Positions 16,580 to 60,686 of a stretch of 64,000 nucleotides of DNA are shown here, piece after piece. The notes beneath the pieces are model-generated. The model ran no database searches and had not been told where the DNA came from. It saw only the letters and a list, made by a program, of their open reading frames with translations. Position 1 is the stretch's first letter, and each line of letters starts with the position of its first letter. Position numbers and translations under genes: made by a program. Origin of the DNA: Primulina eburnea (lineage: Eukaryota; Streptophyta; Magnoliopsida; Lamiales; Gesneriaceae); contig NC_133109.1 in the NCBI RefSeq assembly GCF_022965805.1, positions 6,859,869 through 6,923,868 of the forward strand. Direction: 5' to 3'.

Positions 16580-16584
16580 GGAAA

Positions 16585-18998
16585 TATATTCACTTTGTTA
16601 AATCAGTTATGGTACATGAACAACCTGAGCCAAGTAAGCTGGTTGAATAGTCGATTGAAAATATGAACAAGGATAAAAGGCATGAGATTGTATATAGTTC
16701 AAAGAGTTCAACTGATTGACGTAGCTGGTCACCTAATTAGCGGTCTAGCTATAGCAAGAAGAACCCTGAGAATGGCTATTACAATTGCAAGCTTGTTCAT
16801 AAACGATATTAGATGAACAACAATGCGATCATAGATAAAATGCATATTGTGTCAACTGCACACAACACATTTAACGCATACAAACTAGGTAAATCTATTT
16901 GGAAAACAATGATTGTAAAGTCAGTTCGACTGATTCAAGTATGAGTTCTTAGAGGACTAATCGTTCAGGACCGAAATAGATTTGGGTACCGATTTTATTT
17001 ATTATTTGTGATTGCATGTTACAGAAAAACTAACCAAAGATTCAATTTCTTGGGGAATAGATGTTCAAGACACATGACTGGAAATTCAGAATAAATTTCA
17101 CAATTGGTTAAGTACTAATGTCCCAAAATCAGCTTTGGAGACGCCTCTCAAGGTAGAACCGTGGGTATGTGTAAGTTTATCCATGGTAACATTATTATTG
17201 ATGATGTCTTATTTGTTGACAATTTGAAATACAACTTGATTAGCATCGGTCAATTATGTGATCATAATATCTGGTTGAGTTTAATAAACATAATTGCATT
17301 GTTAATAACTCCACTGGTGATATCATTATGATAGGCAATAGATGTGGTAATACATATAAAGTTAATTGGAGTAATCAACCCAATGAACTAGTTTTCTGTG
17401 TCACTTCAAATCAATCTAAGGACCACTTATGGCATATGAGGTTAAACCACTTGAACTTCCAAACCATTGAAAAATTGAGTAACCACGAACTGGTAACTGA
17501 TATGCCAAAAATTAAATTTTCAAAAGATAAAATATGTTCAGTTTGTCAGTTTGGGAAGCGAGTTAGATCCTCTTTCAAAAAAAAAAGGAAGTAAATCTTT
17601 TACTCGATGCTTAGAACTGGTGCATATGGACTTGTTTGGTCCAATACTAATCATGAGTTTAGGGGGAATGAAATACACATTAGTGATTGCTGACTATTTC
17701 TCAAGTTTTACTTGGGTAATTTTTCTAAAATCAAAAGACCAAATTGGCTTCACAACTGATAAAATTTTTCAAAAGACTTTTAAAGAAAAGATCAATTGAG
17801 ATTGATGGAATATCCGATCGCAGAACTAGATTTTGAATCAAACTCTATCTCAATTTCTAGCAAATATGGGAATCAGACATGAGTTCTAAGCTGCAAGAAC
17901 ACCACAACAGAATGGTGTAGCTGAACGCATAAATCGTACTCTAAAGGAGGCAGCTAGAACTATTCTTACTAATTATGGTATTTCTCAAAGGTTTTGGGCA
18001 GAAGCATTTAATACAACATGTTACACTTAGAACAGATCGATGATCAATAAAAATCATTCCAAAACACCTTATGAGCTCTAGCATGGAAAGAAAAGTGTGG
18101 TTTCATACTTCAAAATATTTGGATGTACGTAAGTGTTTCATCCACAATAATGGTAAAAACCACTTAACCACCTTTGATATTAAATCCGATGAGAGAATAT
18201 TTCTTGTTTATTCATCAGTTAATAAAGCTTATAGAGTATTTAATATGCGTACATTCAATGTTGAACAATTGATACATGTTATTTTTTATGAAATTGTAAT
18301 AACTGATAAGCCAACTGATCCAGTTGGAATAGTAAAGATGAAGTTCACACTATCGGAAACCTCCTTCAAACACCAGATCCCGATGTGGTAGATCAAATAG
18401 TTGGACAGGACGGAGTTACCAAAGATCAGTTTGTGGAACATCAAGATGATATCCAAACCCAAACTCAAGTAATTTCAAATCAAGTAGAAGAAATTGGTCA
18501 GTTGCAAACTGAACCTGTTATGCATATCAGTTTGACAAACTCAAACTTCAGATGGAGCAAAAATCATCCACATGATTTGGTAATAGGTAATTCATCTGAT
18601 CTAGTAAAAACTAGAAAACAAATGTTTAGTTTATTTGTATATTCAGCTTTTATATCTCAATTAGAACCTAATAACATTGATGAAGCTTTAACTGATCCCG
18701 GTTGGGTAAATGCTGGGCAAGAAGAGCTAAATCAGTTCACTCGTAATAATGTCTGGACTTCAGTTCCATAACTGATTTCAAAATCTATTATAGGTACTAA
18801 ATGGTTGTACAAGAACAAACTAAACGAAGATGGTTCAGTTGTGCTCAACAAAGCGAGACTAGTTGCACAAGGCTATATGCGAGAATAATGAATCGATTAC
18901 GATAAAACATATTCTTTAGTTGCTCGACTGGAAGCAATCAGAATATTTCTTGATACGCATCCTTCAAGAATTTCAAAGTCTATTAAATGGATGTGAAG
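16585..18998 (+). pseudogene. Copia pol of copy 1, part 1 (protease, integrase, RT start)
   Basis: It continues the linker (YIHFVKSV) directly after the TSD. A decayed protease DSGCSRHMTG region is near 17065. At 17328-17594 is the GAG-pre-integrase domain with HMRLNHLNFQTIEKL and a CSVCQFGK zinc-binding pair. The integrase core follows with LVHMDLFGPI and a decayed ARTPQQNGVAERINRTLKEA region near 17900. The linker and RT start (PHDLVIGNSSDLVKTRKQ, NQFTRNNVWTSVP, then [15 protein letters not shown]) reach MDVKSA, where a solo LTR cuts the gene. Several stops and frameshifts are present. Confidence 0.85.
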
Positions 18999-19003
18999 AG
19001 CGC

Positions 19004-20934
19004 TGTGAGGACCCAGACGCTAATTCGTTTCTTAATCGTTCTAGGGAATAATTACCAACAATTAAGATAAAAAAGGTCTAGATTTTTTTTTTATATAAAA
19101 TACAAGAGTACGAAACATATGAAATAAATCTTATTTCATTTACAAGATCAATATCCAGATCTAAGTACAAGTCCTGTACAAAAGTAAATCATAACAACTA
19201 TTGTTCCTTCAATACATGTCAGGTGATGAAACAGGATTACTTCTAAGTCCGGATCTCCACGCTAACTGTCTACTCTTATCCTCTTCTTGAACCTGATCAT
19301 GTCCCACCTGTTGTCATGCACACATTCAAACAAAACAACAGCCGGATAACTCCGGTGAGAAAGACATTCCCAGTATAAATCATGTATACATGCAATCATA
19401 TAAACAATATAAAAGCATGAAATAGATATCAATAACATGTATCCAATCAGAAAGACATGAATCGGTATAAAACTGTAATTCACACTCTGTGAATCTTACA
19501 CTCTGACTCGACTGTTTCCTAGTCTAGGGATCCCGATCTGAATAAGAACGTAACAAATCTCCCACCTACTCTCCCGATCGTGGTGGCGGTACGTTCTTAT
19601 TTACGGACTTTTGTCCTGTCCATATCGAATCTCGACAATAGAAGTCGCTCTAATTCTAGGCAACATCGATATAACCAAATGTCCGGTGTCTTGACACCTC
19701 TGCCAAAGGCTTGGCATCTCCACCAAAGACTAGGCATGTCCGCCCAAAACTAGGCACATCATCCCAAAGACCTCCCATGACTCTGCACATAACATATGCT
19801 TAACTATAAATCAATATAATAAGCATATCAATCTCAGACATTGCAACATATCGAGGCAATGACAATTAAGTATGTGATTTTGGGAAACTCAAGTTAAATC
19901 AAACTCGAGTTGTGCAATCCCGGATCAACATTGATGTATACCTTTCTTTCTGTCGAAGTCTCTGATTCAAATCTCTCAATACTCAATCTGTCAATCACAA
20001 TATCAAGGAGTATAATATCAATACACCACTCAATCAATACTGGATATAATCAGAACTCAATCAAATTCTGTTTCAACGGTATAACGGCACAATCTCAATA
20101 TACCCAGCAATACAATATCAATAAGATATCGATCGCAACATCTCATAATCGATAAAAATACAATTCTGATATCAAATCTCAATCAAATCAACTCTGAAAA
20201 TCATAATAATTTCATATGGTATATGTTTCTCAATTCGGTTTCAATACGATGTTTAACATATCAGAAACACCATATATGAATCATATTCGATTCCTTCAAT
20301 AGCATATTTTCAAATCATATCAAAACGTAATAAAACTTACGTCCAGTTGCAGCTCTCGTCACTAGGAACACAGTACTGCAGTCGGATTGAAATTCTGACG
20401 GGCGGATCTTGCACAAACTTCAAATTCCTAAAATAAAAGGCGTAAGGATTTTCCACATTTTTTCTGAAGCTTCCTTCGTTTTCCTCTTTTCCTTTATGAA
20501 TTCTGAAAGAATAACGTTGCTTACATATATCAATGCATGTTAAGGGGCAAATGGCTCATCCTAAGTGCAACACGTCTCGCGCATATGCGCGACCCTCCTC
20601 GGCGCATATGCGCAAGACACTATGTCTCGGCGCGTCCTCATCACGGCATCTCGCGCATATGCGCGCCCACGCTCGGCGCATATGCGCGAGGTTCTTCACA
20701 ACTCTCCGCCATCCTCGCGCACATGCGCGGATCCATGTCGCGCATATGCGCGAGGTTCTCTGCCTACTCCGCGCATATGCGCCCGACGTGGTCGCGCTTA
20801 TGCGCGAGGGCTCATCCTCGCACATAACTTCAATCTTCTTTCCGGCTTTTCCGGTCTGATCCGTTCCGTATATAATCACACCAATTATCAATAAATCATT
20901 TCAGATTACAATAATCAAAATCTCGGGCATTACA
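19004..20934 (-). mobile_element. Gypsy-type solo LTR carrying a CGCGCATATGCGCG array
   Basis: A perfect TSD AGCGC lies at 18999-19003 and 20935-20939. In the minus-strand sense it starts TGTAATGCCCGAG and ends GGGTCCTCACA, close to the LTR termini of 42433-44435 and 28023-29846, so it belongs to the same superfamily of LTRs. Length is 1931 bp. Features include short tandem CCAAAGACTAGGCAT-like repeats at about 19690-19770 and the palindrome array at 20577-20807. It inserted in the RT of Copia copy 1. Confidence 0.9.
20577..20807. repeat. Array of eight CGCGCATATGCGCG palindromes
   Basis: Palindrome centres are at about 20584.5, 20607.5, 20658.5, 20681.5, 20722.5, 20745.5, 20776.5 and 20799.5, so the steps are 23, 51, 23, 41, 23, 31 and 23 bp. 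The core GCGCATATGCGC is perfect in most copies; two carry one central change (ACATG, TTATG). In the LTR sense the array starts about 130 bp from the LTR 5' end, the position of the ACCGCACCCGCGGT array in related LTRs. Confidence 0.95.
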
Positions 20935-20939
20935 AGCGC

Positions 20940-22110
20940 CTTTCTCAATTGTCAGTTACATGAAGATGTTTACATAGAACAACCTCTAGGTTTCGTAAAT
21001 CATTTATTTCCAGACCCATGTTTGTCACCTTAACAAAACTTTATATTTGTCTTAAACAAGCTCCCAGAGCTTGGTATGAGACCTTACCAAGATTTTCAAT
21101 TGATAATGATTTTACTGTGGGAACAATTAACAAGTCACTATTCAAATTCACGAAGAAAGATCACACCCTACTTGTTCAAATTTACGTTTATGATATTATT
21201 TTTGGGTCAACTAACCCAAACTATGAGAAAAGCTTGCTAAACTGATGCATGACAAATTTGAGATGACAATAATGGGTGAATTGACGTTCTTTCTTGGTTT
21301 GCAAGTGAAGCAACTGGAAACTGATATCTATATCATTCAGACAAATATAACAAGGAACTACTCAAGAAATTTGGCATGGAAACATGTTCGCGGCATCCAC
21401 TCCCATGAGTTCATCGATTAAACTAGACAAAGATGAATGGAGAATATCAGTTAACATGACACTCTACAAAAAGTTTAATATGTTTATTATTATACCTAAC
21501 TACTAGCCGTCTTGATATTATATTTGTTGTATTCTTGTGTGCTAGATTTCAAGCTGATTCTAAATAATCACATTACTTAGTTGGATAACGTATATTGAAA
21601 TATTTTAAAGGCACACAAAAATGTGGGCTTATGTATGCTAAAAATTCTTCTTTCAATTTAGTTGATATTCAGATGCAGATTATGCAGGATGTAAGCTAGA
21701 TCATAAAAGTACAAGTGGTTCATGTAATTTTATAGGAGATAGACCGATCTCATGGTTTAGCGAGAAGCAGACATCCATTGCGACTTCCACAATTGAAGCT
21801 GAATACTTATCCGCTGGAAGTTGTTGTACTCAACTGTTTTGGATTCAACAACAACTAAAGACTATGGAGTTATTGATGAGAATCACCAATCTTTTGTGTT
21901 AACACCAGTTAAATTGTGATTACATATAATCTAGTTTTCCACTCTAGAAGAAAGCATATTGATGTCAGACATCACTTCATCAGAGATCATGATCTAAATA
22001 AGGACATCGGACTGGAATACATATCAACTGAACAGCAAGCAACGAACATCTTTACTAAGCCTCTATCCGAGACTAAGTTTCTTACTTCAGAAACATTTTA
22101 TGGCTTTTAG
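20940..22110 (+). pseudogene. Copia pol of copy 1, part 2 (RT end, RNase H)
   Basis: It resumes with AFLNCQLHEDVYIEQPLGF after the TSD. At 21018-21245 is [14 protein letters not shown] and the RT catalytic loop, where the expected YVDD reads YVYD, a lost catalytic Asp. RNase H follows in broken frames (FFLGLQVKQLE near 21290, then HIDVRHHFIRDHDLNKDIGLEY and FTKPLSETKF at 21955-22080). The stop is at 22108-22110. Confidence 0.85.
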
Positions 22111-24719: not shown

Positions 24720-26069
24720 TGTTGCGTGTTTTCTTGATTGCTCGCAAGCGCACGACGTCAAGTTATAGAAAAATGTAATTTTGAGTACAAGTGTCGATCC
24801 CACGAGGAATGTATTTCTAAATTTATATTAATGCTTGTAATTAAAATACTCTTGACTTTATTTAGAATATTCAATTAACAGATTTGTTCACCTCAATAAC
24901 TAGATTGAAAATAAATTTAATTGTAGTACCAAACAAGGTTGAACAACAATGGAATAAAAGATCTAGAGGTCCGATTTCATGCAACTATCCACCATGTGCT
25001 ATTTTGTGTAGCTATATTATAAATGTCCTTCTTATTCATTAGCCAAGAATTCTATAATTATCTACTCCCTCTCCCGAATGCTAAGTAGATACTAATTATC
25101 TAACAAAGGATTGTAACGTCCCCGTCAGCAATCTATAATTAAATAACACAATAAGCACTAACTTCTTTTAATGGCTTCAATATCAATAGATGTCCTCCCT
25201 AACTATATAAATACCATCGATGTATTTTTCCCTTTCTTGTTTATAAATTCCCTTTTCCAAATGATAATTTATAAACATACAAATCATTCAAGATATGGCC
25301 ACTAAAATGAAAGCATTAAGATTGGAAAAATACAAATGAATAATAAAGGAAACTTATATAGCATAAATCATAAATCCCAACACATGGTTTCTAGTTTTGT
25401 TCCATCATTCCTCTAGAATTAAGATTTAGTTCATAATAATAAAAATAACACAACAACACATAAATGTTAAACAAGACATATCAAATAGAAGTAAAAATAA
25501 AGAAAGAAGAACTTAGAACAAGAGATTGGGAGTGTAATGAAATTTCGGTCCAAAAGTATGCAAGGACTTGTTGAAAATGATGAACTTGATCTTCAATCCT
25601 TCCCTTGTAGCCTCCACTCTTTGTCTTTGCTCCTCAATAACCTAGATGATGAATAATAGCATCCTTTTATAGTCCAGACAAGATTCCCCACGTAGCACAC
25701 CATTTTCCTAGACTTGTATTAAAAGTCCACAAAGTTTCAGAATTTCCGGAATGATGTTGGTGCACGACCGCGGGTGCGGTGCTAGATGGATCGCAGGTGC
25801 GGTTGTATTTCGGCAGAACTTTTAATTTCAAGCATGTGAGACCGCACGTGCGGTCATGCTTCGGCATTTCAGCGCGGGTGCGGTCATGCTTCGTCAATTT
25901 TTTTGTCCTTTGCACCTTCTAATTCATCACTATACTACTCCAAATTCTCATTTCTAAGCTTCCAAACTACAATAACAAAAACAACAACAAATCAAATAAA
26001 ACCTGCTCAAGAATCACAAATTTTCAAGTTAAAAACAAGTAATAAAAGTACAATAAATTGCACTTATCA
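24720..26069 (-). mobile_element. Solo LTR of a third gypsy-like family, with a short GC palindrome array
   Basis: A perfect TSD ATCAA lies at 24715-24719 and 26070-26074. In the minus-strand sense it starts TGATAAGTGCAATTTATT and ends AAAACACGCAACA; the other strand shows GTGTCGATCCCACGAGGAA. These termini recall Athila/Tat-type LTRs (memory, moderate). Length is 1350 bp, with no coding region. It inserted in the accessory ORF of Copia copy 1. Confidence 0.88.
25766..25885. repeat. Four ACCGC-NNNN-GCGGT palindromes in the 24720 LTR
   Basis: Centres are at about 25773.5, 25796.5, 25847.5 and 25877.5, with steps of 23, 51 and 30 bp. The copy at 25840-25855, GACCGCACGTGCGGTC, is a perfect 16-bp palindrome. 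Flanking words (TGCCGAAGC, GAAATT/AATTTC) are shared with the arrays at 28122 and 42574. Confidence 0.9.
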
Positions 26070-26993: not shown

Positions 26994-28022
26994 TGTTGGA
27001 AATAATAAATGTCAAAGTTTGAAAAACTAAACTGAAGACTCGAACTGAATAGCAACTAAAATGAAAGAACGTAACTGATCTCAGAACTGAAGGAGAATTA
27101 TTGGCCTGAAATAGACCAAGTAGAACTGAAGTAATTAAACTAAAGTTCTCAAATGTATGATTAAGTCTCAGACTGATGAATTGAAGATTGACAAAACTGA
27201 ATTACCAGAACTGAAGAGCAGAACTAAATAAACAGGTATAGCGTACTTGAAAACTGAACTGATAGAAGAACATTCAAACTAAAATGACATCAGTTAGAAC
27301 TGGTATAGGCCAAATGAAATGATCGGTCAACCAGTTTGACTCCTGATCAGTTAGCCACGTCATCAGTTGCAATTTGAATCTCAGCGGACAAACTGAAACT
27401 CCGTACAAAACAGAACAGACGAAGCATAAAAGTCTAATACATTGTACCTCTGTCAGAAAAAGTCATCTACATGGACTAAAAGACGATTCAATGGATATTA
27501 CTCATTAAATACATTTAATGTGACTGTTGGAATCAAAGACTATATATAGATGAGGAGTTTAGTTGTGAAAAAATCAACGATCTTGAACGACGAGTGAAAA
27601 TCAATAGTTAGCAACGAATAACATGAATAATCAGTATTTCAGTCAGTTGCAATTTATTTTCAAGTTCATATTCAGTTTGGAAAGCACAATCTCAAGCTCA
27701 CAAGTCACTGATATATTTGTAGCATCCACGCTACTCATTTGAGCTACTCAATTTCCAATTGATATATTTTGTAAGAAAAACTAAGAGTTTCAGTTTGACA
27801 TTGTTCAAGTACAAAACTATAGTAAGTTATTACATCCATGGTAATTAATCAAAGTTTTTTAGTGAATACATATCCTTGAGATAGAAGTGGTGACGTAGGA
27901 ACATTTGAAGTATCTGAACATCTATAAAAATCCTCATGTGCATTATTCTCATTCATTCAGTTATCACAGTACCCTAGCCCAAATATTCAAATCTTTCTTT
28001 CAGTTTAATTTCGCACTATTTT
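26994..28022 (+). mobile_element. 3' LTR of Copia copy 1, first part
   Basis: It starts TGTTGGAAATAATAAATG and is interrupted at 28022 by the chromovirus. It is very rich in AACTGA/TCAGTT hexamers between 27000 and 27400. A TATA box (TATATATAGATG) at 27541 probably marks the LTR promoter. A block matching other family LTRs (CCTTGAGATAGAAGTGGTGACG) lies near 27870-27895. Confidence 0.85.
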
Positions 28023-28121
28023 TGTAAGGCTCGAGAATTATCCGTTGTCATCGATGTGAGACTTGAAACCATGAGAATGCATGATATTTAGAGTGGAATT
28101 TTTGAAGCATGGCCGAAGCCA

Positions 28122-28349
28122 CACCGCCCCCGCGGTGCTAAGACTACCGCACCCGCAGTGTAGGTGACAGAAATTGGTGAATTTGTGCGAACAGACACCG
28201 CACCTGCGGTGTTAGCAAGACCGCACCCGCGGTGTGAGACCGCACCCGCGGTCATGTGAGGACCGCAGCCGCGGTCATTGAATTTCAGGAAATAAAATGT
28301 CGCCGTGAACACAGCGCACCCGCGCTCCTGAGTTACCGCACCCGCGGTC
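28122..28349. repeat. Array of eight ACCGC-ACCC-GCGGT inverted repeats (5' LTR)
   Basis: Spacer centres are at about 28129.5, 28152.5, 28203.5, 28226.5, 28245.5, 28268.5, 28319.5 and 28341.5, with steps of 23, 51, 23, 19, 23, 51 and 22 bp. Each unit has 5-bp arms around a 4-base loop (mostly ACCC). Unit 7 has both arms changed together (AGCGC and GCGCT). The array ends about 50 bp before the TATA box. Confidence 0.95.
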
Positions 28350-28397
28350 TGCATGCGAGATTGCCACTTTTGAATTTCGTGTTGACACATGGCATGC

Positions 28398-28407
28398 TAT
28401 ATAAATA
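28398..28407 (+). promoter_or_regulatory. LTR TATA box (chromovirus 1, 5' LTR)
   Basis: TATATAAATA sits about 50 bp after the palindrome array and about 375 bp into the LTR. It is the likely core promoter for the genomic RNA. Confidence 0.7.
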
Positions 28408-29851
28408 CCTTGCATTGACACTTCATTCTTTGATTTCCCATCAGCAGAACCGAGAGCACCTTGGGAGGAAAACTTCATGTCCTTTGATCTTGAGGTCGAG
28501 ATTTTAAATGATCTTGTGTTCTGATTTTAATTCCGAGTGTAGATTCATGATCCTTGCAACAAGGGCTAGCTAAGGATGTAAGTTTCGATTATTTTCAGCA
28601 TGGTTCGAAATCTATGTATTGGGGAAATTATGATTTTGTTAGAAATATGTGTTCTTGATATACCGAGCATCGTATATTTGTTATCAGATCGATTTTCGGA
28701 CACCGTATATGAGCCTTGCGAATTTCCAGCATGTATATCGATATTGATTGGAAGAATTGAGCATGTTATATTGTGTTTTGATGAGTATATTATGAAGATT
28801 ATGAGTTGTGGCTATTGTATATATTGTTTTGTTGAGATTGAGTTGACCGGTACCGAGAATTACACCGTTACGCCGTCAAATTGTATTGAAACCGATTTCA
28901 GCTATGTTTATTGAGTTGTTTGAGATGTATATTGATAGAGTGCACCTTGACTATGCCATTTCAGATTTGTATTGGCTATTGTGAACTCGAGACTTCGACG
29001 ACGACACCGACGATTCGGCAAGAAAGGTATAATTCATGTGGTCACGGGATTGCACAACTCGATTCAGATTTGATACGAGTTTCCCTAAATCACATACTAG
29101 ATTGTTATTACATTTGATTATGTAATGCCTTGTTTATTGATTTATATTCGAGTCCTGAGATAGGAGAGATTGGCAGACTTGCCAAAACTAGACGTTTCGG
29201 TGTATCGACGCATAGGAGCAGATTTGCTATATGTGTAGACCCTCGATACAGAGTTGACCGAAGTCTAGGAATAAGACGTACCGTTGCCCCGAGTGGTTGG
29301 GTAGGTAACAGACCGTCTTATTCACACCGGGATCCCTAGTTTAGAAATGAGTCGAGTCAAGATTTAAATGTTGAATACAGATTTGTATTCTTCTACATGT
29401 TTAGATTTTATTCATGTTACTTGATATAGTCTATGCTTTTGTACATGATTATGACATTGCATGCATCCATGTTTTATACTAGGATATGTTCTCACCGGAG
29501 TTATCCGGCTGTTGTCGTGTCTGTATGTGTGCATGGCAACAGGTGGGGCAGGATCAGGGTCAAGACGAGGAAGAGAGAGTGGATAGCGTGGAGATCTCGG
29601 GCGTGGAGGATTCCTAGTGTTTCCTACTGGACTTGTAGCACTTATGTTTGTAGTTGTTATTGAACACTAGTGTATGTTTGTACGCACAGACTTGTATGTA
29701 CATTACGTTGTTTAATTTCTTTTGAGACATGTGATGATTTCGTTAATACATTTAAATTAATGTTAAAAGCAAATTTTTGACCCACATTTTCGAACAAAGA
29801 TCCAATTAAATCCCAAAAGAATAGAGTTAGAGCCCGGGTCCCCACAACAGG

Positions 29852-30104: not shown

Positions 30105-33100
30105 ATGCCGCCTAGACGAGTGCCACAGCCAGAGCAGGGTAGCACGTCCGGTGCACAGATGGATGTTACCGCTACGCCGATGGAGACCTTATTGAAGAGA
30201 TTTTAGTCTTTTCATCCGCCTACCCTGAAGGGCACAGAGAGTGCAGTAGAGTGCGAGAGCTGGCTTGATGATATCGAGATGTTGTTTGAATCGTTGGCCT
30301 ATACCGATGAGCGACGTGTGAAACTGATAGAGCATCAAATGCAGGAGGTTGCCAAGAGCTGGTGGTTGACTACGAAGAGAGCCTTGGAGCACCGAGGCAT
30401 TGACATTACGTGGAAAGTCTTCAAAGATGAGTTCTATCAGCGCTTCTTCCCCGTCTCCTACCGGAAAGATAAGGGAGCTGAATTTGCGAATCTGAAGCAG
30501 GGACAGTGGAACATTGAGGAGTATGTTGCTAAATTTTCTGCATTGCTACGATTTGCACCGCATGTGGCCGGGAACGATGAGGCAGTGGCCGATCAGTTCA
30601 TCAACGGGCTGAATCCCGACGTCTTTACTTTGGTAAACACGGGCCGGCCTAGTACTTTTTCAGAGGCACTGAACCGAGCGAAGGGAGCCGAGGCTGGCTT
30701 GATCAGGCAGCGAGGGGATTCCTACGGTGTTCAGGGGCAGAGACCGCCACAGCCTACTACCGTACAGTTTCCACCACCTCCTCCTCGTTTTGACAGCGGA
30801 GCTAGTGGTAGTGGTAAGAAGGAATTTCTGAAGGCTAAAGGCAAACAGTTTAAGAAATCTGGGAGTAGTTCATCGAGATCGAGTGGATCTCGACAGAGAG
30901 GTCAGGGGTCAGAGTATAGTGGCGCATACTGTGGTTCGTGCGGAGGGCGACATGCGACGGAGCAGTGTCAAGGAGTTATGGGACGCTGCAACATCTGTAG
31001 GCAACAGGGACACTTCGCTAGAGTTTGTCCCCAGAGAGGTGCACAACGATTCCAGAGCACCGGATCATCAGCACCAGCGCCACAGATGGAGAGACAGGCA
31101 TCTTCTGTACACTCCTTCCAGCCACCCTCTACACAGACCCAGCAGAGACCAGGAGGTAGTCAGATGGTGAGTCAGCCTCCCAGACAGCAGGCACGTGTTT
31201 TTGCCCTGACAGAGGAGCAGGCGCAGGAGGCGCCAGATGACGTCATTGCAGGTAGCTGTTTTCTTTGCGGTTATCCTGCATATGTGTTGATTGACACAGG
31301 GGCATCTCATACATTTATATCTGAACATTTTGCATTGAGACATTCATTGCCTGTTGAGTCGTTGTCGACAGTAGTGTCTATAGCTTCTCCGTTGGGGAGT
31401 GGTTTGATATCTGTGACTACTGTTAGACACTGTATGCTTCAGTTTGAGGGGCATGAGATTGATCTTGATTGTGTAGTACTTGGTCTAGCTGATTTTGACT
31501 GTATAGTTGGTATAGACATGTTAACCAGGTACAGGGCCACGGTAGATTGTTTCCACAAAATTGTCAGATTCAGACCCGAGATGACAGATGAGTGGAAATT
31601 CTACGGCAAGGGTTCCAGATCTCGGATTCCCTTAGTATATGCTCTGACTATGAGTAGACTGCTTCAGAGAGGAGCAGAGGGCTTTCTCGTATATTCAGTA
31701 GATTTACTGAAGTCGAGCCCAGCATTGGCAGATTTGCCAGTGGTTTGCGAGTTTGCAGATGTTTTTCCTGATGAGATTCCAGGGTTGCCTCCGGTTCGAG
31801 AGGTTGATTTCAGCATAGATCTTATGCCCGGTTCTGTTCCTATTTCGAGAGCTCCGTATAGAATGGCACCGATAGAGCTGAAAGAGTTGAAAGCACAGTT
31901 GGAGGATCTTTTATCCAAGGGATATATCAAACCCAGTGTATCTCCTTGGGGTGCTCCAGTGCTTTTCGTTAGAAAGAAAGATGGTTCGATGCGACTGTGT
32001 ATTGATTATAGGCAGCTGAATAAGGCAACAGTGAAGAACAAGTATCCTTTGCCGCGCATCGACGACTTATTTGACCAGTTACAGGGATCTTCGGTATATT
32101 CGAAGATTGATTTGAGATCAGGGTATCATCAGCTCCGAGTTAGAGACGTTGATATTCCGAAGACTGCATTCCGAACCAGGTATGGACATTACGAGTTTGT
32201 TGTTATGCCTTTCGGTTTGACGAATGCACCAGCGGTTTTCATGAGTTTGATGAAACGTATTTTTCAGAGCTATTTAGATGAGTTTGTTATTGTTTTCATT
32301 GATGATATTTTGGTGTATTCGAAGAGTTTGACTGAGCATGCAGATCACCTGAGGATTGTATTGAAGACTTTGAGAAATGAGCGGTTGTATGCCAAACTGT
32401 CCAAGTGTGAATTCTGGCTGAGACAGGTTGTCTTCTTGGGGCACATTATATCGGGAGATGGTATTGCGGTAGATCCGAGTAAAGTTGAGGCTGTGATCAG
32501 TTGGCCGAGACCGACTTCTGTGCCTGAGATACACAGTTTCATGGGTCTAGCCGGGTATTATCGTCGTTTTATCCGAGATTTCTCCAGTATAGCGAAGCCT
32601 ATCACCCAGTTGACACAGAAGAATATGCCATTTGTGTGGTCCGAAGATTGTGAAGCCAGTTTTGTAGAGCTGAAGAAGAGGCTGACTAGTGCGCCTGTCT
32701 TGACGATTCCTGCAGGTACAGGTGAGTTCGTTGTATACTGTGACGCATCTCACAGAGGGTTAGGATGTGTTCTTATGCAGCGAGGGCACGTGATAGCATA
32801 CGCCTCTAGACAGCTGAAGCCGCACGAGACTCGTTATCCGATTCATGATCTTGAATTGGCGGCGATTGTTTTTGCACTTAAGATCTGGCGTCATTATCTG
32901 TATGGCGAGAAATTTGAGATCTATTCCGATCATAAGAGCCTGAAATATCTCTTTTCTCAGTCAGAGTTGAACATGAGGCAGCGACGATGGCTTGATCTGC
33001 TGAAAGATTTTGATTGCGAGATCAAGTACCATCCAGGAAAGTCAAATGCAGCGGCAGACGCCTTGAGTCGAAAGGTATGTGCTCTTTCCTTGTCGACTCT

Positions 33101-34625
33101 AGGTGTATCGAATTTAGTGGAAGATTGTTGCTTGTCTGGATTGATATTTGATACAGATAGTAGACCGTTGCAACTTGCTGCGATTCAGATTGAGCCAGAT
33201 CTGATTTTGAGGATCAAAGAAGCGCAGAGGACTGATCCGAGTGTGCAGAAATCGATTGATATGGTCAGAGCTGGACATATCTCAGAATATCAGGTCAGAG
33301 ATTCCGTTCTATATGTGAATAACCGCTTAGTAGTGCCAGAGATTTCAGATTTGAGACGACAGATCATGTCGGAGGCACACTGTAGTCGGTTCAGCATTCA
33401 TCCTGGTGGCAGGAAGATGTATAACGACTTGAAGACACAATTCTGGTGGAAGCAGATGAAGACAGACATTGCAGAATTTGTGTCTAAGTGCCTGAATTGC
33501 CAGCAGGTGAAGGCAGAGAGAAAGAAGCCCGGAGGTTTACTTCAGAATTTGTCTGTTCCTGAATGGAAATGGGACCACATTTCCATGGATTTCGTGACGA
33601 AGTTACCTCGATCATCCCGGGGCTGTGATTCGATTTGGGTCATCATTGACAGATTAACCAAATCAGCGTGCTTTATTCCGTACAGAATGACCTATCGACA
33701 CGATCAGATGGCAGAGTTATATGTCAGAGAGGTCGTCAGATTGCACGGTGTGCCGAAGTCGATCGTCTCAGATCGTGATCCACGATTTACTTCTCACTTT
33801 TGGCATAGCTTGCAGCAGGCTTTAGGTACGACTTTACACCTGAGCACTGCTTATCATCCTCAGACAGACGGACAGTCAGAGCGGACTATCCAGACTTTAG
33901 AGGACATGCTGAGAGCTGTAGTACTAGATTTTGGTACTAGTTGGCAAGATTCATTGCCATTGTGTGAGTTTTCATACAACAACAGCTATCAGACGAGCAT
34001 AGAGATGGCACCGTTCGAAGCTTTATACGGAAAGAAGTGCAGATCTCCTCTGTACTGGGATGATATTTCTGAGGTACCAGTGTTGGGGCCTGATATGATT
34101 CGTGAGATGACAGAGAAAGTGAAGATCATTCAGAAGCGAATGAAGACGGCACAGGATAGGCAAGCGAAATACGCCAATGTCAGACGTAGACCGTTGGTAT
34201 TTGAGCAGGGAGACAGAGTATTTTTGAAGATTTCACCTTTCAGAGGCGATGTCAGATTTGGCAAGCGAGGAAAGTTGTCTCCTAGATACGTCGGTCCGTA
34301 TGAGATTCTTGAGAAGATTGGCGATCGAGCTTACAGACTTGCTCTTCCTCCTTCACTGTCCGGTATACATGATGTTTTTCATGTATCGATGTTGCGCAAA
34401 TATATGCCGGATGATTCTCATGTCATTCAACCTGACGAAGCCGAGCTAGATCAGACCTTGAGCTACGTTGAAAGACCGATACAGATTCTTGATCGGAAAA
34501 AAAAGAAGCTCAGGACAAAGACTATTCCATTAGTGAAGATTCAATGGAGTCGTCATGGTATCGAGGAAGCAACTTGGGAGACGGAGTCTGAGATGAGACA
34601 GAGGCATCCCGAGTTATTTTTATGA
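30105..34625 (+). pseudogene. Chromovirus 1 gag-pol polyprotein (one amber stop)
   Basis: The start is the ATG at 30105 (MPPRRVPQPEQ). Codon 34 is TAG (30204-30206, in RF-stop-SFHPP), most simply a CAG-to-TAG change; from there the frame is open to 34625. Counting from the internal Met at 30279: gag with paired zinc knuckles ([27 protein letters not shown]) at about 218-250; protease IDTGASHTF at about 337; RT with [10 protein letters not shown] at about 671; RNase H with [10 protein letters not shown] at about 820 and [10 protein letters not shown] at about 880. Integrase follows with an HHCC finger and SDRDPRF at about 1160, then GPY/F ([14 protein letters not shown]) and a chromodomain-like tail ([18 protein letters not shown]). 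All catalytic motifs look intact. Gag, protease, RT and integrase would make particles, copy RNA and insert DNA; the tail may target chromatin. Confidence 0.93.
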
Positions 34626-34727: not shown

Positions 34728-36550
34728 TGTAAGGCTCGAGAATTATCCGTTGTCATCGATGTGAGACTTGAAACCATGAGAATGCATGATATTTAGAGTG
34801 GAATTTTTGAAGCATGGCCGAAGCCACACCGCCCCCGCGGTGCTAAGACTACCGCACCCGCGGTGTAGGTGACAGAAATTGGTGAATTTGTGCGAACAGA
34901 CACCGCACCTGCGGTGTTAGCAAGACCGCACCCTCGGTGTGAGACCGCACCCGCGGTCATGTAAGGACCGCACCCGCGGTCATTGAATTTCAGGAAATAA
35001 AATGTCGCCGTGAACACAGCGCACCCGCGCTCCTGAGTTACCGCACCCGCGGTCTGCATGCGAGATTGCCACTTTTGAATTTCGTGTTGACACATGGCAT
35101 GCTATATAAATACCTTGCATTGACACTTCATTCTTTGATTTCCCATCAGCAGAACCGAGAGCACCTTGGGAGGAAAACTTCATGTCCTTTGATCTTGAGG
35201 TCGAGATTTTAAATGATCTTGTGTTCTGATTTTAATTCCGAGTGTAGATTCATGATCCTTGCAACAAGGGCTAGCTAAGGATGTAAGTTTCGATTATTTT
35301 CAGCATGGTTCGAAATCTATGTATTGGGGAAATTATGATTTTGTTAGAAATATGTGTTCTTGGTATACCGAGCATCGTATATTTGTTATCAGATCGATTT
35401 TCGGACACCGTATATGAGCCTTGCGAATTTCCAGCATGTATATCGATATTGATTGGAAGAATTGAGCATGTTATATTGTGTTTTGATGAGTATATTATGA
35501 AGATTATGAGTTGTGGCTATTGTATATATTGTTTTGTTGAGATTGAGTTGACCGGTACCGAGAATTACACCGTTACGCCGTCAAATTGTATTGAAACCGA
35601 TTTCAGCTATGTTTATTGAGTTGTTTGAGATGTATATTGATAGAGTGCACCTTGACTATGCCATTTCAGATTTGTATTGGCTATTGTGAACTCGAGACTT
35701 CGACGACGACACCGACGATTCGGCAAGAAAGGTATAATTCATGTGGTCACGGGATTGCACAACTCGATTCAGATTTGATACGAGTTTCCCTAAATCACAT
35801 ACTAGATTGTTATTACATTTGATTATGTAATGCCTTGTTTATTGATTTATATTCGAGTCCTGAGATAGGAGAGATTGGCAGACTTGCCAAAACTAGACGT
35901 TTTGGCGTATCGACGCATAGGAGCAGATTTGCTATATGTGTAGACCATCGATACAGAGTTGACCGAAGTCTAGGAATAAGACGTACCGTTGCCCCGAGTG
36001 GTTGGGTAGGTAACAGACCGTCTTATTCACACCGGGATCCCTAGATTAGAAATGAGTCGAGTCAAGATTTAAATGTTGAATACAGATTGTATTCTTCTAC
36101 ATGTTTAGATTTTATTCATGTTACTTGATATAGTCTATGCTTTTGTACATGATTATGACATTGCATGCATCCATGTTTTATACTGGGATATGTTCTCACC
36201 AGAGTTATCCGGCTGTTGTCGTGTCTGTATGTGTGCATGGCAACAGGTGGGGCAGGATCAGGGTCAAGACGAGGAAGAGAGAGTGGATAGCGTGGAGATC
36301 TCGGGCGTGGAGGATTCCTAGTGTTTCCTACTGGACTTGTAGCACTTATGTTTGTAGTTGTTATTGAACACTAGTGTATTTTTGTACGCACAGACTTGTA
36401 TGTACATTACGTTGTTTAATTTCTATTGAGACATGTGATGATTTCGTTAATACATTTAAATTAATGTTAAAAGCAAATTTTTGACCCACATTTTCGAACA
36501 AAGATCCAATTAAATCCCAAAAGAATAGAGTTAGAGCCCGGGTCCCCACA
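34728..36550 (+). mobile_element. 3' LTR of chromovirus 1
   Basis: 1823 bp, nearly identical to the 5' LTR. Four of the roughly 14 differences lie in the 228-bp palindrome array, an excess for about 12% of the length. Confidence 0.93.
34827..35054. repeat. Array of eight ACCGC-ACCC-GCGGT inverted repeats (3' LTR)
   Basis: Same spacing as the 5' LTR copy. Differences include GCAGT to GCGGT in unit 2 and ACCC to CCCT-type loop change in unit 4. The TATA box TATATAAATA follows at 35103. Confidence 0.93.
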
Positions 36551-36555
36551 ATTTT

Positions 36556-36697
36556 GGTTAACTGATCGATATAGTCATACAAGATTTCAAGATTAGTTAA
36601 TCAAACAACTTATTCATATTCGAAAAAGAGTTCAAAAACCCTAAGTGATTATTCAACCCCTTTCTAAACAATTTAAACATATTAGCCGATCCTAACA
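36556..36697 (+). mobile_element. 3' LTR of Copia copy 1, last part
   Basis: It continues from 28022 after the TSD copy and ends GCCGATCCTAACA, parallel to the end of the 5' LTR at 11151. The right flank is TATCG; the left partner TSD cannot be tested because the 5' LTR is truncated. Confidence 0.85.
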
Positions 36698-40960: not shown

Positions 40961-42573
40961 TTTACCAAATATTTTTGTAGACATAATTAATAAGGTATAA
41001 AATACGATGACGTGATCCAACTGTATGCAAATCTAGGTAAAATATAAAATGACTAATTAAATGGTTTTAATTACATGAATTAATTATGGTGTGCATGTTT
41101 ACATGTTTTAAATATGATTTTCTGTTAGAATGCATAAAACTGTGTTTTTAAAAGTTATTCGAGACGCGATCGAGGAACGGAGAATGGGCACCATATGAGG
41201 GAAAATATTTTTATTAAATAATTATTTTTAATTATTTAATATGTGGTGTATTTTAATGGAATCTTCGAAAATGAGGTATTGTGATCTATTTTTATACATT
41301 GAGTCGTATTTTAAATTGGTATTCAATTTTCGATGAAAACTGTGACTTTTTGGAAACTCGGATAATATTTTCACCAACTTTAGTAAGCAAAATATTTTAA
41401 ATATTAAATAATGAGCTCAATGGGCCTTTATACTAGGTTAATCGGCCTAAGCTTGCACCATGTATTTTAAATCAAATAATCAAGGCTTCCCAGTCTTTTA
41501 TTTCCTTCAAACTCACGCCCCATCACCTAGAAAACTAGGAATCTCCCATCAACACACATGAAAATTTTGAGATGAATTCACGCAAGTTTGAAGAAAAATT
41601 CAGCAAGCTTCTTCCCACGTCTCGCCGCCAACGTCCCTCGCATCGCAAGTTGATTTTCGTGCATAATATACATAAAGGCACACCTTAATCTTCCTTCAAA
41701 CATCTTTCACACCATATTATGTATTTTTAATTATCCTTGCATGAAAAATATGTTACACTACTTTTATTTTCGTGTTCACGCTATATATGCATAAAACTAG
41801 AGTTTTTTCTTTTTAGAACTCTTGGTGATAATGCACAAAGGGGCTGCCATGGTAGGAGTACTTGAGGGTATGTTTTCCACATGTTTAAGGTCCCTAGATG
41901 CATAGATAAGAGCTGCATGTGAAGGGCTGACGGATTGAACGAAAATTTTGATTTAAGGGAGGTTAGGGTTTCGGTCATGGTGGCTATGGAAGAGAGGGTT
42001 TTGTGCTGCATTGGGACGTGTTCAAGGTTCCTAAGAGTGGCTAGTCAAGGTCCTAAGCTAATCGCGTGAGGACTGCTATGAAGGCTAGGGAGGAACCGCG
42101 CAAGAGGAAAAGTCGCACTTGGATTTTTGTGACAGGTGAAGGGCTGGGCATGCATGGGGCTGTTAGGTTCGGTCCAGTTGCTTACTACGAGCACAGTCAT
42201 CGTCCAAGGAGGGTGGTCTAGGGGTTGGTCTTGGTGGATAAGGGTTGGGGCCAAGGTTGCATGGGTAGGAGGCTAGGGTTTTTAAATTAGGATAAGAAAA
42301 ATCAATAGCTGACCTAGGCATGATTGAGGGTCTTAATTTGTTTGATTTGGGTTTTATATTGTATAGATAGGTGTTTTTAAGCTATGTTTTAAGTTTGGTT
42401 AAGTTTTGAGTTGATTCGGATTGAAACTAAGATGTAATGCCCGAGAATTAATCACTGTCAATCAAAGATTATTGACTTATAATTTAACGTGATTAGGAAA
42501 GGGCCAACGGAGACACGATTTAAGATAATGTGCGGCCATTTATTCTGAATTTTATAATGTGTTGCCGAAGCAA

Positions 42574-42804
42574 CACCGCACCCGCGCTCAGGAAGACACC
42601 GCACCCGCGGTGCATGGACAGAAAGTTGGGGCAAATTCCAGTAGCCTCACCGCACCCGCGGTAAGAAACAAGACCGCACCCGCGGTGCAGGACCGCACCC
42701 GCGGTGCAAACAAGACCGCACCCGCAGTCGTCGAATTTCAGAAAATGAAAGTGCTGCCGAAGCATGAGCGCACCCGCGGTCTTGAAGCTACCGCACCCGC
42801 GGTG
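42574..42804. repeat. Array of eight ACCGC-ACCC-GCGGT inverted repeats (42433 LTR)
   Basis: Centres are at about 42581.5, 42604.5, 42655.5, 42679.5, 42698.5, 42721.5, 42773.5 and 42796.5, with steps of 23, 51, 24, 19, 23, 52 and 23 bp. This is nearly identical to the pattern in chromovirus 1 although the rest of the LTR has diverged. Confidence 0.95.
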
Positions 42805-43594
42805 CTACGTGTTTTGCGAAAAATGAGGACACCTCATAACATGCATGCACCGATATATATAGAACAAAATCCCTTCGAAATCAGTGAAGAAAATCGAGAA
42901 AGGGTTTGAAGAAGTTGCTGAAAATCCTTACGCCTTTTGTGAAAAATCCGTTCGTCTGATTTTGAATCCGACTTCGGTACCGAGTCCTAGCAACATAGGC
43001 TACAACTGGACGAAAGTTTTACTACGTTTTGACATGCTTTGAAATTATGCTATTGTCAGAATTGAATGGAATTCATATATGATGTTCTTGACATGTTAGA
43101 CATCGTAGAATCGAAGTCAGATTGAGAAACGGACTGATTATGGAATTGTTATGAATTTTTAGGGTACATTGATTTATACCAGACAGATTTGAATTGTGAT
43201 TGGATTACGGATTGTATTGAATCTGGGTTATGGATTGTAACTGTGATCTGAGGATATTGTATTGACGGGGATATTGAAATTGTACCGTTATGCCGTTGAT
43301 TTTCAATTAAATCCAGATTGATCAGATTGTTATTGATTTGAAAGGTATATTGACATGAGATTATTGATATTGTCATTGCCAGACAGAATGTGAATTCAAG
43401 ACTTCGACTGAGCCAGAAACCGACGAAAGAAAGGTATAAGTCAATGTGGTATTGGGAGATCGACTTGAGTCGGTTTAGACTTGAGTTTCCCTAAATCACA
43501 TACTTTACTTTATTGCATTGATATTTGCATTGATTTGATTGATGTACTTGTTCTCTTGAATTATAGATAACAGGTAGTAGATGAGTAATTTTGT

Positions 43595-43730
43595 GACAGA
43601 AGTTCCTGATAGTGGTGGGATCGCCACGGGAACATTGCACGATGTCACAAGATAGTATAGAAATCTTGGGACGGAAGTGCCTGATAGTGGCGGGATCGCC
43701 ACGGACACATTGCACGATGTCTCAAGATAG
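43595..43730. repeat. Tandem duplication, about 76-bp period
   Basis: GAAGTTCCTGATAGTGGTGG and the following GATCGCCACGG...ATTGCACGATGTC block is repeated once with a few changes, ending in CAAGATAG both times. Confidence 0.85.
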
Positions 43731-43770
43731 GATATTAGCGATAGAGCTACAGTCCATGACGGTTAGGTCA

Positions 43771-43905
43771 GGACACCGGATGTTTGGTTATATCGAGTAA
43801 ATAGGATTGGAATTCTTCTATTACGGAATTCGATATAGGAACACCATGTTTGGTTATATCGAGTAATAGGATAAGAGTTCCTTCTATTACGGAATTCGAT
43901 ATAGG
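43771..43905. repeat. Tandem duplication, about 67-bp period
   Basis: Two copies of a unit containing TTTGGTTATATCGAGTAA and CTATTACGGAATTCGATATA. Confidence 0.85.
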
Positions 43906-44861
43906 AACACCACATTTGGAAACCGGGATCCCTAGACTAGGATTAAGTCTAGTTTGAGACGTGAAGTCACGTATATGTCGACAGTCTATGATTGTTTATG
44001 TTTCAGATTTTGATACATATATCTGTTACCTGATCACATGCTTTATATTTGTTTATATGATTGCATGTTTCATTGATTTATACTGGGATTTATTCTCACC
44101 GGAGTTATCCGGCTGTTGTCTTGTCTGTATGTGTACATGACAACAGGTGGGACAGGATCAGGGTCCAGGAGATGAGGAGAGATCGTGATTAGAGTGGAGA
44201 CTACGGACTTGGATTATGATGTATAATAGGGTTTGAACACTTGACATTAGTTGTTAAACCTTAGTTTAGTTTGAATGCATGCAGTACATGACTTGTATTG
44301 TATTTTATACTGATATGTATATTAGTTTGATTGCAATACGTTCCGAATTTTTTAAAAAAATTTAGACCCTGTTTTATAATTGATTAATTAGTCCCAATAA
44401 TGATTAAAAACTTGATTAGCGTCCGGGTCCCCACATAAGACGTATAGGTAAGTTTAAAAACAAATTGAGAAATTAGTCGAGAAGCGTAAGTTTACATCTA
44501 AGAATTTTTTATGGGTGTATTTTAAGATGTTATGTTAAGTTTGGATGGATTTGGGTCGTCGTTTTAAGGTCTAAGGATAAATTGAGAAAGTTAGGATTTC
44601 AAGGACAAACAGTCATTTTACACATGAAAAATGTTACACATCATGTCAGTACCCTGAATGCTGTAATGAAAGCTAAAATGTTTATTTTGAAATTTTATGG
44701 AATTTTATGATAAAAACGATAATTCTAAAAGACGTTTTGCATGCTTGATTTAAAAGAAAAATAATATATATGCATGAAATTTCATAATTGATGAAAATAA
44801 TGAAAAATTGAAGGAGGTGATTTAATTGTGACTAATCCGACGATATGATGATATGTAAAGC

Positions 44862-48784: not shown

Positions 48785-50381
48785 TGTAATAGCCGAGCCC
48801 GGTGTACGGTACGATTTAAGTTTCGCTTGTTATTTGGGTTTTGTGATTAGATGATTGGTTGTGTTTTGGGCTATAGTATTATTGGTTATTGTTTTTTTGA
48901 GGTATTAGTTGGTGTTGATTGTTCGTTTCAGCGTTTCGGATCGAGTTTAGTTGATTTATTACTGTTCATTGCCGTGAGTAGAGTGCACCCGCGCTCTTAA
49001 AGGAGTGCCCCCGCGGTGTACTATTCACCATTTTGGAAGTTGAGGCCGTGAGGACACCGCACCCGCGGCAGTGCAAGGACCGCACCCGCGGTATTTGTAG
49101 CACCGCACCCGCGGTGTTTGTGCATGGGATTTATTTTGGTTGGCCGTGAGCTTAGCGCACCCGCGGTGCTTGTGTGACCGCACCCGCGGTGTAAGTATGG
49201 GCGAGATTTTAAGTCACTTTTTGGGAGTTGTTGGCCATACCTACCTTATCTTCTTCCTTCCATTTCCGATTTTCTCTCATTTCTCAAGGGTTTTCATCCA
49301 TTTCAATTGCTTCCTACCTTTGATTCTTGGCTTTGTTTCGATTTCCGACTTGAGATCGACGTTCTCCGTGGTATAAGGAAGCTTAGGTAAGCTTTTGGTG
49401 CGATTCTATTAAGGTTTTGAGTTAAGGGTTTACTTGGGCTTGATGTTTTGTTGGTTTAATGGAATATTTGACTTGTATTCTTGGATATAGAGTTGATATT
49501 GGTGTTATTTATGGATTATTATTGTAGGTGGTGTACCAAGAGTTAGTTTGGAGGTGTTCTATTGGTTTGTAAGTGGAATTTCATCCTTTTTGCTCACATG
49601 ATATTATATGTATTGTGTTTTAAAGGTTTCAAAGTGTTATTCCCTTCCATTGATCCATTGTTATGTATTGATTTCATTGATTATCTATTGGAGGCATTGA
49701 TGTCTCACTATTGTTAAAAGGGAATACAAGAAAATATAGAGATTGCGAAACGACGGCTTTAAATGTTATTCAGAGTTCAAATGTTTTATTGGATTGATTA
49801 ATCATAGTCAGAGCATTGCATGCAATTAGATGATCATCGACCATAGGCTTTTATCCCCTCACAGTTATCGATTTATATCGATGGGATATTGGCAACCACA
49901 GTCATAGATACTATTGATATCAATCCAACCATAGAAAAGAGAAATACCATCGTATTGCTATCTATTGCTATGCTATTGCTACAGTTATTGCTACAGTATT
50001 CATGTTTCAGAGTTGATGGTATTTATGATTTCAAAGCCATGTTTTACAGAGTATACTATGTATCATTGCTATGTAGAGTTCCACTTGCTGAGTTTTTATA
50101 CTCATTTCAGTTATTTTCATGTGATGCAGATAAGAGTGACAGATCAGGGCAGTGATCGTGGATGGGGGTCATATGCATACACCGTTGGAAGGAAGACTAT
50201 TTTGTATCATTTTGGGACATGATCATGAGAATGATTATTTTGTATTTTGTATGTCATTTGAATGATCATGTGATTATTTTTTTAAACATTTTATGAAATG
50301 TACTTTGAAACTCCTCCCATATTTTAAAGAAAAATTTTAAATTCCGCTGTGTATTTTATCGTTACGGGTCAGAGTGTCACA
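48785..50381 (+). mobile_element. 5' LTR of chromovirus 2
   Basis: TGTAATAGCCGAGCCC...CAGAGTGTCACA. Apart from the array at 48982-49191 it is unlike the LTR of chromovirus 1. Frames at 49140-49376 and 49889-50222 recur in the 3' LTR and are not credible proteins. Confidence 0.93.
48982..49191. repeat. Array of seven ACCGC-ACCC-GCGGT inverted repeats (chromovirus 2, 5' LTR)
   Basis: Centres are at about 48988.5, 49010.5, 49062.5, 49085.5, 49108.5, 49160.5 and 49183.5, with steps of 22, 52, 23, 23, 52 and 23 bp. Units 1 and 2 have imperfect left arms (AGTGC). The word GCCGTGAG precedes units 1, 3 and 6. Confidence 0.95.
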
Positions 50382-54973: not shown

Positions 54974-56570
54974 TGTAATAGCCGAGCCCGATGTACGGTA
55001 CGATTTAAGTTTCGCTTGTTATTTGGGTTTTGTGATTAGATGATTGGTTGTGTTTTGGGCTATAGTATTATTGGTTATTGTTTTGTTGAGGTATTAGTTG
55101 GTGTTGATTGTTCGTTTCAGCGTTTCGGATCGAGTTTAGTTGATTTATTACTGTTCATTGCCGTGAGTAGAGTGCACCCGCGCTCTTAAAGGAGTGCCCC
55201 CGCGGTGTACTATTCACCATTTTGGAAGTTGAGGCCGTGAGGACACCGCACCCGCGGCAGTGCAAGGACCGCACCCGCGGTATTTGTAGCACCGCACCCG
55301 CGGTGTTTGTGCATGGGATTTATTTTGGTTGGCCGTGAGCTTAGCGCACCCGCGGTGCTTGTGTGACCGCACCCGCGGTGTAAGTATGGGCGAGATTTTA
55401 AGTCACTTTTTGGGAGTTGTTGGCCATACCTACCTTATCTTCTTCCTTCCATTTCCGATTTTCTCTCATTTCTCAAGGGTTTTCATCCATTTCAATTGCT
55501 TCCTACCTTTGATTCTTGGCTTTGTTTCGATTTCCGACTTGAGATCGACGTTCTCCGTGGTATAAGGAAGCTTAGGTAAGCTTTTGGTGCGATTCTATTA
55601 AGGTTTTGAGTTAAGGGTTTACTTGGGCTTGATGTTTTGTTGGTTTAATGGAATATTTGACTTGTATTCTTGGATATAGAGTTGATATTGGTGTTATTTA
55701 TGGATTATTATTGTAGGTGGTGTACCAAGAGTTAGTTTGGAGGTGTTCTATTGGTTTGTAAGTGGAATTTCATCCTTTTTGCTCACATGATATTATATGT
55801 ATTGTGTTTTAAAGGTTTCAAAGTGTTATTCCCTTCCATTGATCCATTGTTATGTATTGATTTCATTGATTATCTATTGGAGGCATTGATGTCTCACTAT
55901 TGTTAAAAGGGAATACAAGAAAATATAGAGATTGCAAAACGACGGCTTTAAATGTTATTCAGAGTTCAAATGTTTTATTGGATTGATTAATCATAGTCAG
56001 AGCATTGCATGCAATTAGATGATCATCGACCATAGGCTTTTATCCCCTCACAGTTATCGATTTATATCGATGGGATATTGGCAACCACAGTCATAGATAC
56101 TATTGATATCAATCCAACCATAGAAAAGAGAAATACCATCGTATTGCTATCTATTGCTATGCTATTGCTACAGTTATTGCTACAGTATTCATGTTTCAGA
56201 GTTGATGGTATTTATGATTTCAAAGCCATGTTTTACAGAGTATACTATGTATCATTGCTATGTAGAGTTCCACTTGCTGAGTTTTTATACTCATTTCAGT
56301 TATTTTCATGTAATGCAGATAAGAGTGACAGATCAGGGCAGTGATCGTGGATGGGGGTCATATGCATACACCGTTGGAAGGAAGACTATTTTGTATCATT
56401 TTGGGACATGATCATGAGAATGATTATTTTGTATTTTGTATGTCATTTGAATGATCATGTGATTATTTTTGTAAACATTTTATGAAATGTACTTTGAAAC
56501 TCCTCCCATATTTTAAAGAAAAATTTTAAATTCCGCTGTGTATTTTATCGTTACGGGTCAGAGTGTCACA
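54974..56570 (+). mobile_element. 3' LTR of chromovirus 2
   Basis: 1597 bp, about five differences from the 5' LTR; none is in the palindrome array. Confidence 0.93.
55171..55380. repeat. Array of seven ACCGC-ACCC-GCGGT inverted repeats (chromovirus 2, 3' LTR)
   Basis: Identical by eye to the array at 48982-49191, offset by 6189 bp. Confidence 0.93.
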
Positions 56571-60675: not shown

Positions 60676-60686
60676 ATGTAACAGCT

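Follow-up and report, generated by a model that had tools for sequence, protein, structure and literature searches.

Palindrome arrays in retrotransposon promoters of the window

The DNA analysed here is a 64,000-nucleotide stretch of the 812-Mb genome of Primulina eburnea (bases 6,859,869-6,923,868 of contig C9, NC_133109.1; hereafter the window), in which long terminal repeat (LTR) retrotransposons and solo LTRs carry arrays of a short GC-rich palindrome. In the 5' LTR of an element that we call chromovirus 1, eight palindrome units lie at 28123-28348 with centre-to-centre steps of 23, 51, 23, 19, 23, 51 and 22 bp, exactly as a sequence-only reading of this DNA had described, and the steps which that reading gave for a solo LTR at 42433, for chromovirus 2 and for an LTR at 24720 hold as well. 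For the LTR at 19004 its steps (23, 51, 23, 41, 23, 31 and 23 bp) stand but its unit does not: the unit there is a different one, CGCGCATATGCGCG. The arrays and their carriers are as follows (A, B and C, LTR groups defined below; TSD, target-site duplication; PBS, primer-binding site):

28023..29846, + strand: 5' LTR of chromovirus 1, group A; TSD ATTTT, PBS TGGTATCAGAGC next to it; placed by self-alignment and end sequences
28123..28348, + strand: palindrome array in the chromovirus 1 5' LTR, 8 units
28398..28405, + strand: TATA box of the chromovirus 1 5' LTR, 50 bp past the final unit
30207..34625, + strand: open gag-pol frame of chromovirus 1; reverse transcriptase (RT), RNase H, integrase, and a chromodomain at E 4.9e-5, under the Pfam cut-off
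34728..36550, + strand: 3' LTR of chromovirus 1, 99.2% identical to its 5' LTR
34828..35053, + strand: palindrome array in the chromovirus 1 3' LTR, 8 units
42433..44435, + strand: solo LTR, group A; TSD TAAGA
42575..42803, + strand: array of this solo LTR, 8 units, steps 23, 51, 24, 19, 23, 52, 23; TATA 51 bp downstream
48785..50381, + strand: 5' LTR of chromovirus 2, group B; TSD CATTT
48982..49190, + strand: array of the chromovirus 2 5' LTR, 7 units, steps 22, 52, 23, 23, 52, 23; units 1-2 with 3 mismatches
54974..56570, + strand: 3' LTR of chromovirus 2, 99.7% identical to its 5' LTR
55171..55379, + strand: array of the chromovirus 2 3' LTR, identical to the 5' array
24720..26069, - strand: solo LTR of 1350 bp, non-chromovirus group C; TSD TTGAT
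25767..25884, - strand: array of this solo LTR, 4 units, steps 23, 51, 30 in + coordinates; TATA 96 bp downstream
19004..20934, - strand: solo LTR of chromovirus type, carrying units of the second class; TSD GCGCT
20578..20806, - strand: array of this solo LTR, 8 units of the CGCGCATATGCGCG class; steps in element orientation 23, 31, 23, 41, 23, 51, 23

The arrays are far denser than chance would give. With at most one mismatch, ACCGCN4GCGGT matched 36 times in the window against 0.18 expected (100 shuffles), while its dyad core CGCN4GCG matched 43 times, every time within an array (50 first-order Markov sequences: mean 1.5, largest 6). Moreover the arrays are CpG-rich, with observed/expected ratios of 1.05-1.57 compared with 0.75 for the window.

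Two unit classes and a common spacing rule

Genome-wide, exact matches number 52,056 for the first-class unit ACCGCACCCGCGGT (26,459 forward and 25,597 reverse) and 24,002 for its sister unit CGCGCATATGCGCG, which is self-complementary and hence listed once per strand; the reversed control patterns of both have no exact copy in the genome. The distinct second class had not been seen in the sequence-only reading. The units may resemble NRF1 or zinc-finger sites.

Spacing was studied in the window and at loci (L numbers below) chosen because they hold exact units within the initial 11.4 Mb of contig C1; the spectrum is accordingly that of a sample. Among 37 non-redundant first-class arrays, 109 of the 189 adjacent steps were 22-24 bp and 51 were 50-53 bp (160 together); thus the predicted peak at 23 and 51-52 bp is present in the sampled loci. 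The 20 second-class arrays gave 141 steps: 76 of 22-23 bp, 30 of 31 bp, 15 of 40-43 bp and 17 of 48-51 bp, the remaining three being 25, 28 and 54 bp. When both classes were pooled, 300 of the 326 steps up to 62 bp fell at 22-24, 31, 41-43 or 50-53 bp, so that step lengths rise by roughly one helical turn. Helical phasing of the pooled steps gave R of 0.69 and 0.55 at 10.5 bp, yet the best-fitting period was 9.5 bp, and arrays that are related do not count as independent; the claim is therefore limited to "roughly one turn".

A CCGAAG/CCGTGA box also recurs in first-class arrays; it lies close to the following unit, within the final ten bases of the spacer of 37 bp, and is possibly a further part of the site. 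Another GC-rich palindrome-like cluster, near a copia-like RT (L020:5470-5670), does not show the CGCN4GCG units of the arrays.

Both unit classes occur in distant Ty3/gypsy lineages

By alignment of the downstream flank, the 41 first-class arrays (duplicates included) fell into group A (20), group B (10) and group C (8), with three single; by the upstream flank, L014 and L010:1006 joined A, L016 paired with L019, and seven remained single. Outside the arrays the LTR groups gave no blastn alignment to each other, which speaks against the arrays being a single recent duplication shared by these copies. Groups A and B are chromoviruses: their RTs are 74% identical, their C-termini are chromodomain-like though under the Pfam cut-off, and their carriers in the window have a gypsy-type pol with RT ahead of integrase. 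Group C is a distinct Ty3/gypsy lineage, whose RT and integrase (from a fuller copy on C1) are only 38% and 25% identical to those of chromovirus 1. A tandem duplication (L017, L030 and L018; C1:8309050-8331999) with an offset of ~18 kb starts exactly at a group C LTR start and aligns over 4.9 kb at 99.8% identity.

As for the second class, 14 of the 20 arrays matched chromovirus-type LTRs of the window by blastn (L048 through one reference and over 153 bp only), and four (L033, L042, L050 and L051) form a group F. L041 probably represents the array internal to the L042 element, and L045 is unassigned. The polypurine tract and LTR start of L042 and L051 are as in group C, the LTR start of L033 is as in C, and L050 aligns to L033. 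Since the second class is found in chromovirus-type and F elements and the first in A/B and C, both classes occur in both lineages. To judge by the polypurine tract, LTR start and gene order, C and F are probably Athila-like.

Distance to the TATA box and constraint on the units

The sequence-only reading had placed the arrays just upstream of the TATA box where one is visible. The arrays of groups A and C do lie upstream of a TATA box; in group B no TATA match was found within 150 bp of the array. In group A (20 arrays, L014 included) the TATA box starts 49-51 bp past the last unit in 17, and in group C it starts 95-97 bp past it in six of six. The group A interval holds other promoter-like motifs: CGTG at +4 in 16 of the 20, and an RY-like TGCATG or CATGCA at +36 to +43 in 15. 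In L004, L009, L015, L036 and L049 the TATA box has grown into a TA run.

Between elements the units are more constant than the spacers and the downstream LTR. Seven disjoint pairs of related elements, chosen by hand, showed differences of 4.4% in units, 16.2% in spacers and 8.9% in the downstream LTR; on the other hand, in seven presumed sister-LTR pairs, where differences mostly reflect mutation after insertion, the figures were 1.3%, 0.6% and 0.7%. Units are thus most alike between elements yet not between sister LTRs, which indicates that they are kept rather than slow to mutate. Together with the fixed orientation and largely fixed centre of the unit, the quantised spacing and the constant TATA distance in two of three groups, this supports the proposal of the sequence-only reading that the arrays form a modular control element in U3 to which a DNA-binding factor responds.

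Two spacing comparisons were left out of this argument: i) a control in which windows of 23 and 52 bp were projected onto related LTRs by way of the downstream alignments, which is biased to well-aligned stretches and at face value gave no special length conservation in A and C but favoured it in B; and ii) a comparison of spacer lengths which preselected spacings within 3 bp and hence was not used as proof.

Internal arrays precede PF20167 genes

Arrays also occur inside non-chromovirus elements; neither that such elements carry arrays nor that an internal array precedes a PF20167 gene had been noticed in the sequence-only reading. In a group C element, a 10-unit array lies between integrase and an open frame with the domain PF20167 (E 2.7e-46), which Pfam describes merely as a "putative plant transposon protein"; F elements carry second-class arrays upstream of PF20167 homologues that are ~41% identical to that of group C. 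An array lies upstream of each of the four PF20167 regions in the C1 and window loci read, and its start is 239 to 519 bp away from that of the homology. At L052 (C1:6499000-6504400) two inverted PF20167 regions have one second-class array between them, common to both, and at L053 a second array lies further upstream of the PF20167 region. Moreover the internal array was of the same class as the LTR array in all three non-chromovirus elements read. Between the LTRs of chromoviruses 1 and 2 the CGCN4GCG core does not occur, and no PF20167 match was found in the window.

The genome holds at least 150 PF20167 matches above the cut-off (150 of 3,949 first-look candidates were scored, and all 150 pass), while none was found in 14 control genomes. 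Reads of 421 bp sampled two further matches among the 150: upstream of the domain on C7, at a distance of ~0.7-1.0 kb, stand ten first-class units, and upstream of the match on C12 (L055, C12:92640-93060), at ~380-420 and at the read edge, a CCGAAGC box is followed by two units of a third palindrome with a spacing of 22 bp. Among named proteins, those closest to an accessory gene of the array-bearing elements come from Primulina, with 85% identity to P. eburnea.

Compared with solved structures, the predicted PF20167 fold gave one notable match, of weak-to-moderate strength: VANC21, an anti-silencing protein of VANDAL transposons, bound to its target DNA. VIA-align of the globular domain gave no other strong match among those listed, which is not evidence of a new fold. 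At the level of sequence, Pfam at E <= 0.1 on L018, P0001, P0003 and P0005 returned PF20167 only, and no DUF1985, the VANC family.

A candidate element-encoded switch and its alternatives

The reading that we favour, while granting it not quite an even chance, is that the arrays are cis-regulatory binding-site arrays in double-stranded DNA, read by element-encoded, VANC-like PF20167 proteins, with chromoviruses served in trans. Each 14-bp unit with its CGC-N4-GCG core would be one site, and the sites recur in U3, ahead of the LTR promoter, at spacings that grow by about a helical turn at a time. The readers would be PF20167 proteins, which groups C and F, the non-chromovirus elements, encode in a gene that itself stands behind an array; these proteins would bind the units. 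By analogy with the VANC proteins of VANDAL elements, binding would activate or demethylate, keeping the LTR and PF20167 promoters active, probably by countering silencing. The chromoviruses of groups A, B and E lack the gene but have matching arrays, and would rely on proteins supplied in trans. Retrotransposons may in this way share a private on-switch.

A wider form of this reading is put forward more tentatively: that Ty3/gypsy elements encode VANC-like anti-silencing PF20167 proteins of at least two, perhaps three, specificities, matched to the arrays of their LTRs and own promoters, and that chromoviruses without the gene acquired matching arrays and exploit the protein in trans, so that one selfish regulatory network would span the many tens of thousands of sites in a plant genome. 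If so, sequence-specific anti-silencing would extend beyond VANDAL DNA transposons to LTR retrotransposons and be exploited by other lineages; PF20167, and the plant LTR palindromic boxes known since the Sirevirus work, would gain a testable function; and it could be predicted which LTRs activate together. Even without the protein, a spacing grammar common to promoters of unrelated LTR groups is unusual and readily testable.

A host factor common to all these promoters is a serious rival, possible although we are inclined to doubt it. A dimeric transcription factor, or a small group of related factors that differ in specificity (two specificities or more), would bind the units as an enhancer for LTR and internal promoters, PF20167 having some other role. 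This would suit arrays common to distant lineages with different proteins, the fixed array-TATA distance in groups A and C, and the CGTG and TGCATG/CATGCA motifs between array and TATA in group A. However, a host factor alone does not predict the match of internal and LTR array class in three elements, nor the weak-to-moderate match of the predicted PF20167 fold to an anti-silencing protein that binds motif arrays.

Hairpins in RNA or single-stranded DNA, for example as small-RNA sources or silencing triggers, are improbable. Array A did fold better than its shuffles (RNA z -3.6, DNA z -4.4) and array E far better (RNA z -10.2), and the accessible text of PMC5311732 and PMC10760457 reports Sirevirus palindrome regions as small-RNA hotspots. 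But the third array, B, folded at chance (z -1.3, 17 of 200 shuffles equal or better), and three of the four loop bases vary as little as the arms do: in 226 first-class units, positions 7-9 were conserved in 222, 222 and 216, and position 6 in 206. A reversed loop occurred in none of the 226, within what a scan allowing four mismatches and one core mismatch could show. Covariation appeared at one first-class pair only, 2-13 (pairing in 170 against 148.5 under independence; Fisher p 9e-6, with units not independent), and at no other pair in these units, while no second-class pair was clearly above independence (152 against 150.3 at most). As the main account, the structure-forming element that had been the other proposal for these arrays is therefore not supported. 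With most loop bases as constant as the arms, recognition of double-stranded DNA fits the unit sequences better than a hairpin.

Unit number is unstable: five of eight presumed sister LTR pairs differ in length, by 17, 18, 19, 19 and ~75 bp, while those of chromovirus 1, chromovirus 2 and L023 do not (RT lies between both LTRs in all eight except L023). A functionless minisatellite, spreading and keeping its spacing by slippage, would account for such rapid change by about one or two units and for between-unit deletions that leave the remaining spacings unchanged, but is very improbable, because spacers diverge while units stay, 9-bp spacers have an identity of 0.328 against 0.254 from composition and yet 91 of the 109 steps in the 22-24 class are exactly 23, a second unit class has a related grammar, and the TATA distance is fixed in A and C.

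Relation to known systems

The nearest functional relative of the arrays is VANC, and the nearest anatomical relative the Sirevirus palindromic box. According to the part of PMC2829016 at hand, LTRs of Sireviruses (Ty1/copia) have palindromic boxes upstream of TATA and also upstream of the env gene. The likeness is threefold: i) many palindromic, CpG-rich boxes lie in the upper LTR upstream of TATA (here in groups A and C); ii) extra boxes precede env where it is present, as arrays here precede the gene between pol and the 3' LTR in L018, L052, L053 and C7 (one pair at C12); iii) unit sequence varies among elements. In contrast, the carriers here are Ty3/gypsy, the core is CGC-N4-GCG and not the Sirevirus CGG-CCG, and a spacing rule and the same two units are common to distant lineages; that part of PMC2829016 states no spacing rule and tests no gypsy elements.

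From the available sections of PMC5735166 and PMC10398659, VANDAL elements likewise encode a protein and bear arrays of short motifs, of related types, in noncoding DNA, and an unrelated element carries the VANC6 motif, much as chromoviruses here share units. The targets of VANC are arrays of motifs that share one orientation and whose repeat number rises and falls quickly (PMC5735166, as far as its available text goes), which the dense first-class arrays resemble; the second unit is self-complementary, and its orientation cannot be read. Unlike the elements here, those are DNA transposons, with motifs quoted as non-palindromic (same sources). The weak-to-moderate match of PF20167 to VANC21 is by predicted fold only.

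A maize Grande gene is said, going by the title of a cited work, to have a nuclear product and its own promoter. Retand elements also have an extra gene between pol and the 3' LTR, with the domain PF04195 in 57 of 104 antisense open reading frames (PMC11963269, in its accessible part); here, on the other hand, the gene is sense, encodes PF20167 and is preceded by an LTR-type array. PMC12844716 raises the question whether Athila elements code for proteins related to silencing; its available text names no PF20167, palindrome array or VANC fold in a retrotransposon. Among the titles and abstract openings listed from the open-licence literature, none describes these arrays or links PF20167 with VANC; in the text portions covered, the motif letters were not found in print, save a 12-letter part in one Streptomyces paper.

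Other features of the window

Two open frames of 369 and 272 amino acids, at 46672-47778 and 48000-48815 (-), have no Pfam match at E 0.001. A repeat is uninterrupted at 10697-11151, while its other copy (27711-28022 plus 36543-36697) is split by the insertion of chromovirus 1. The solo LTR at 19004-20934 is nested in a Ty1/copia-like element (16580-22080), which is related to the element at 58131-61720 (-).
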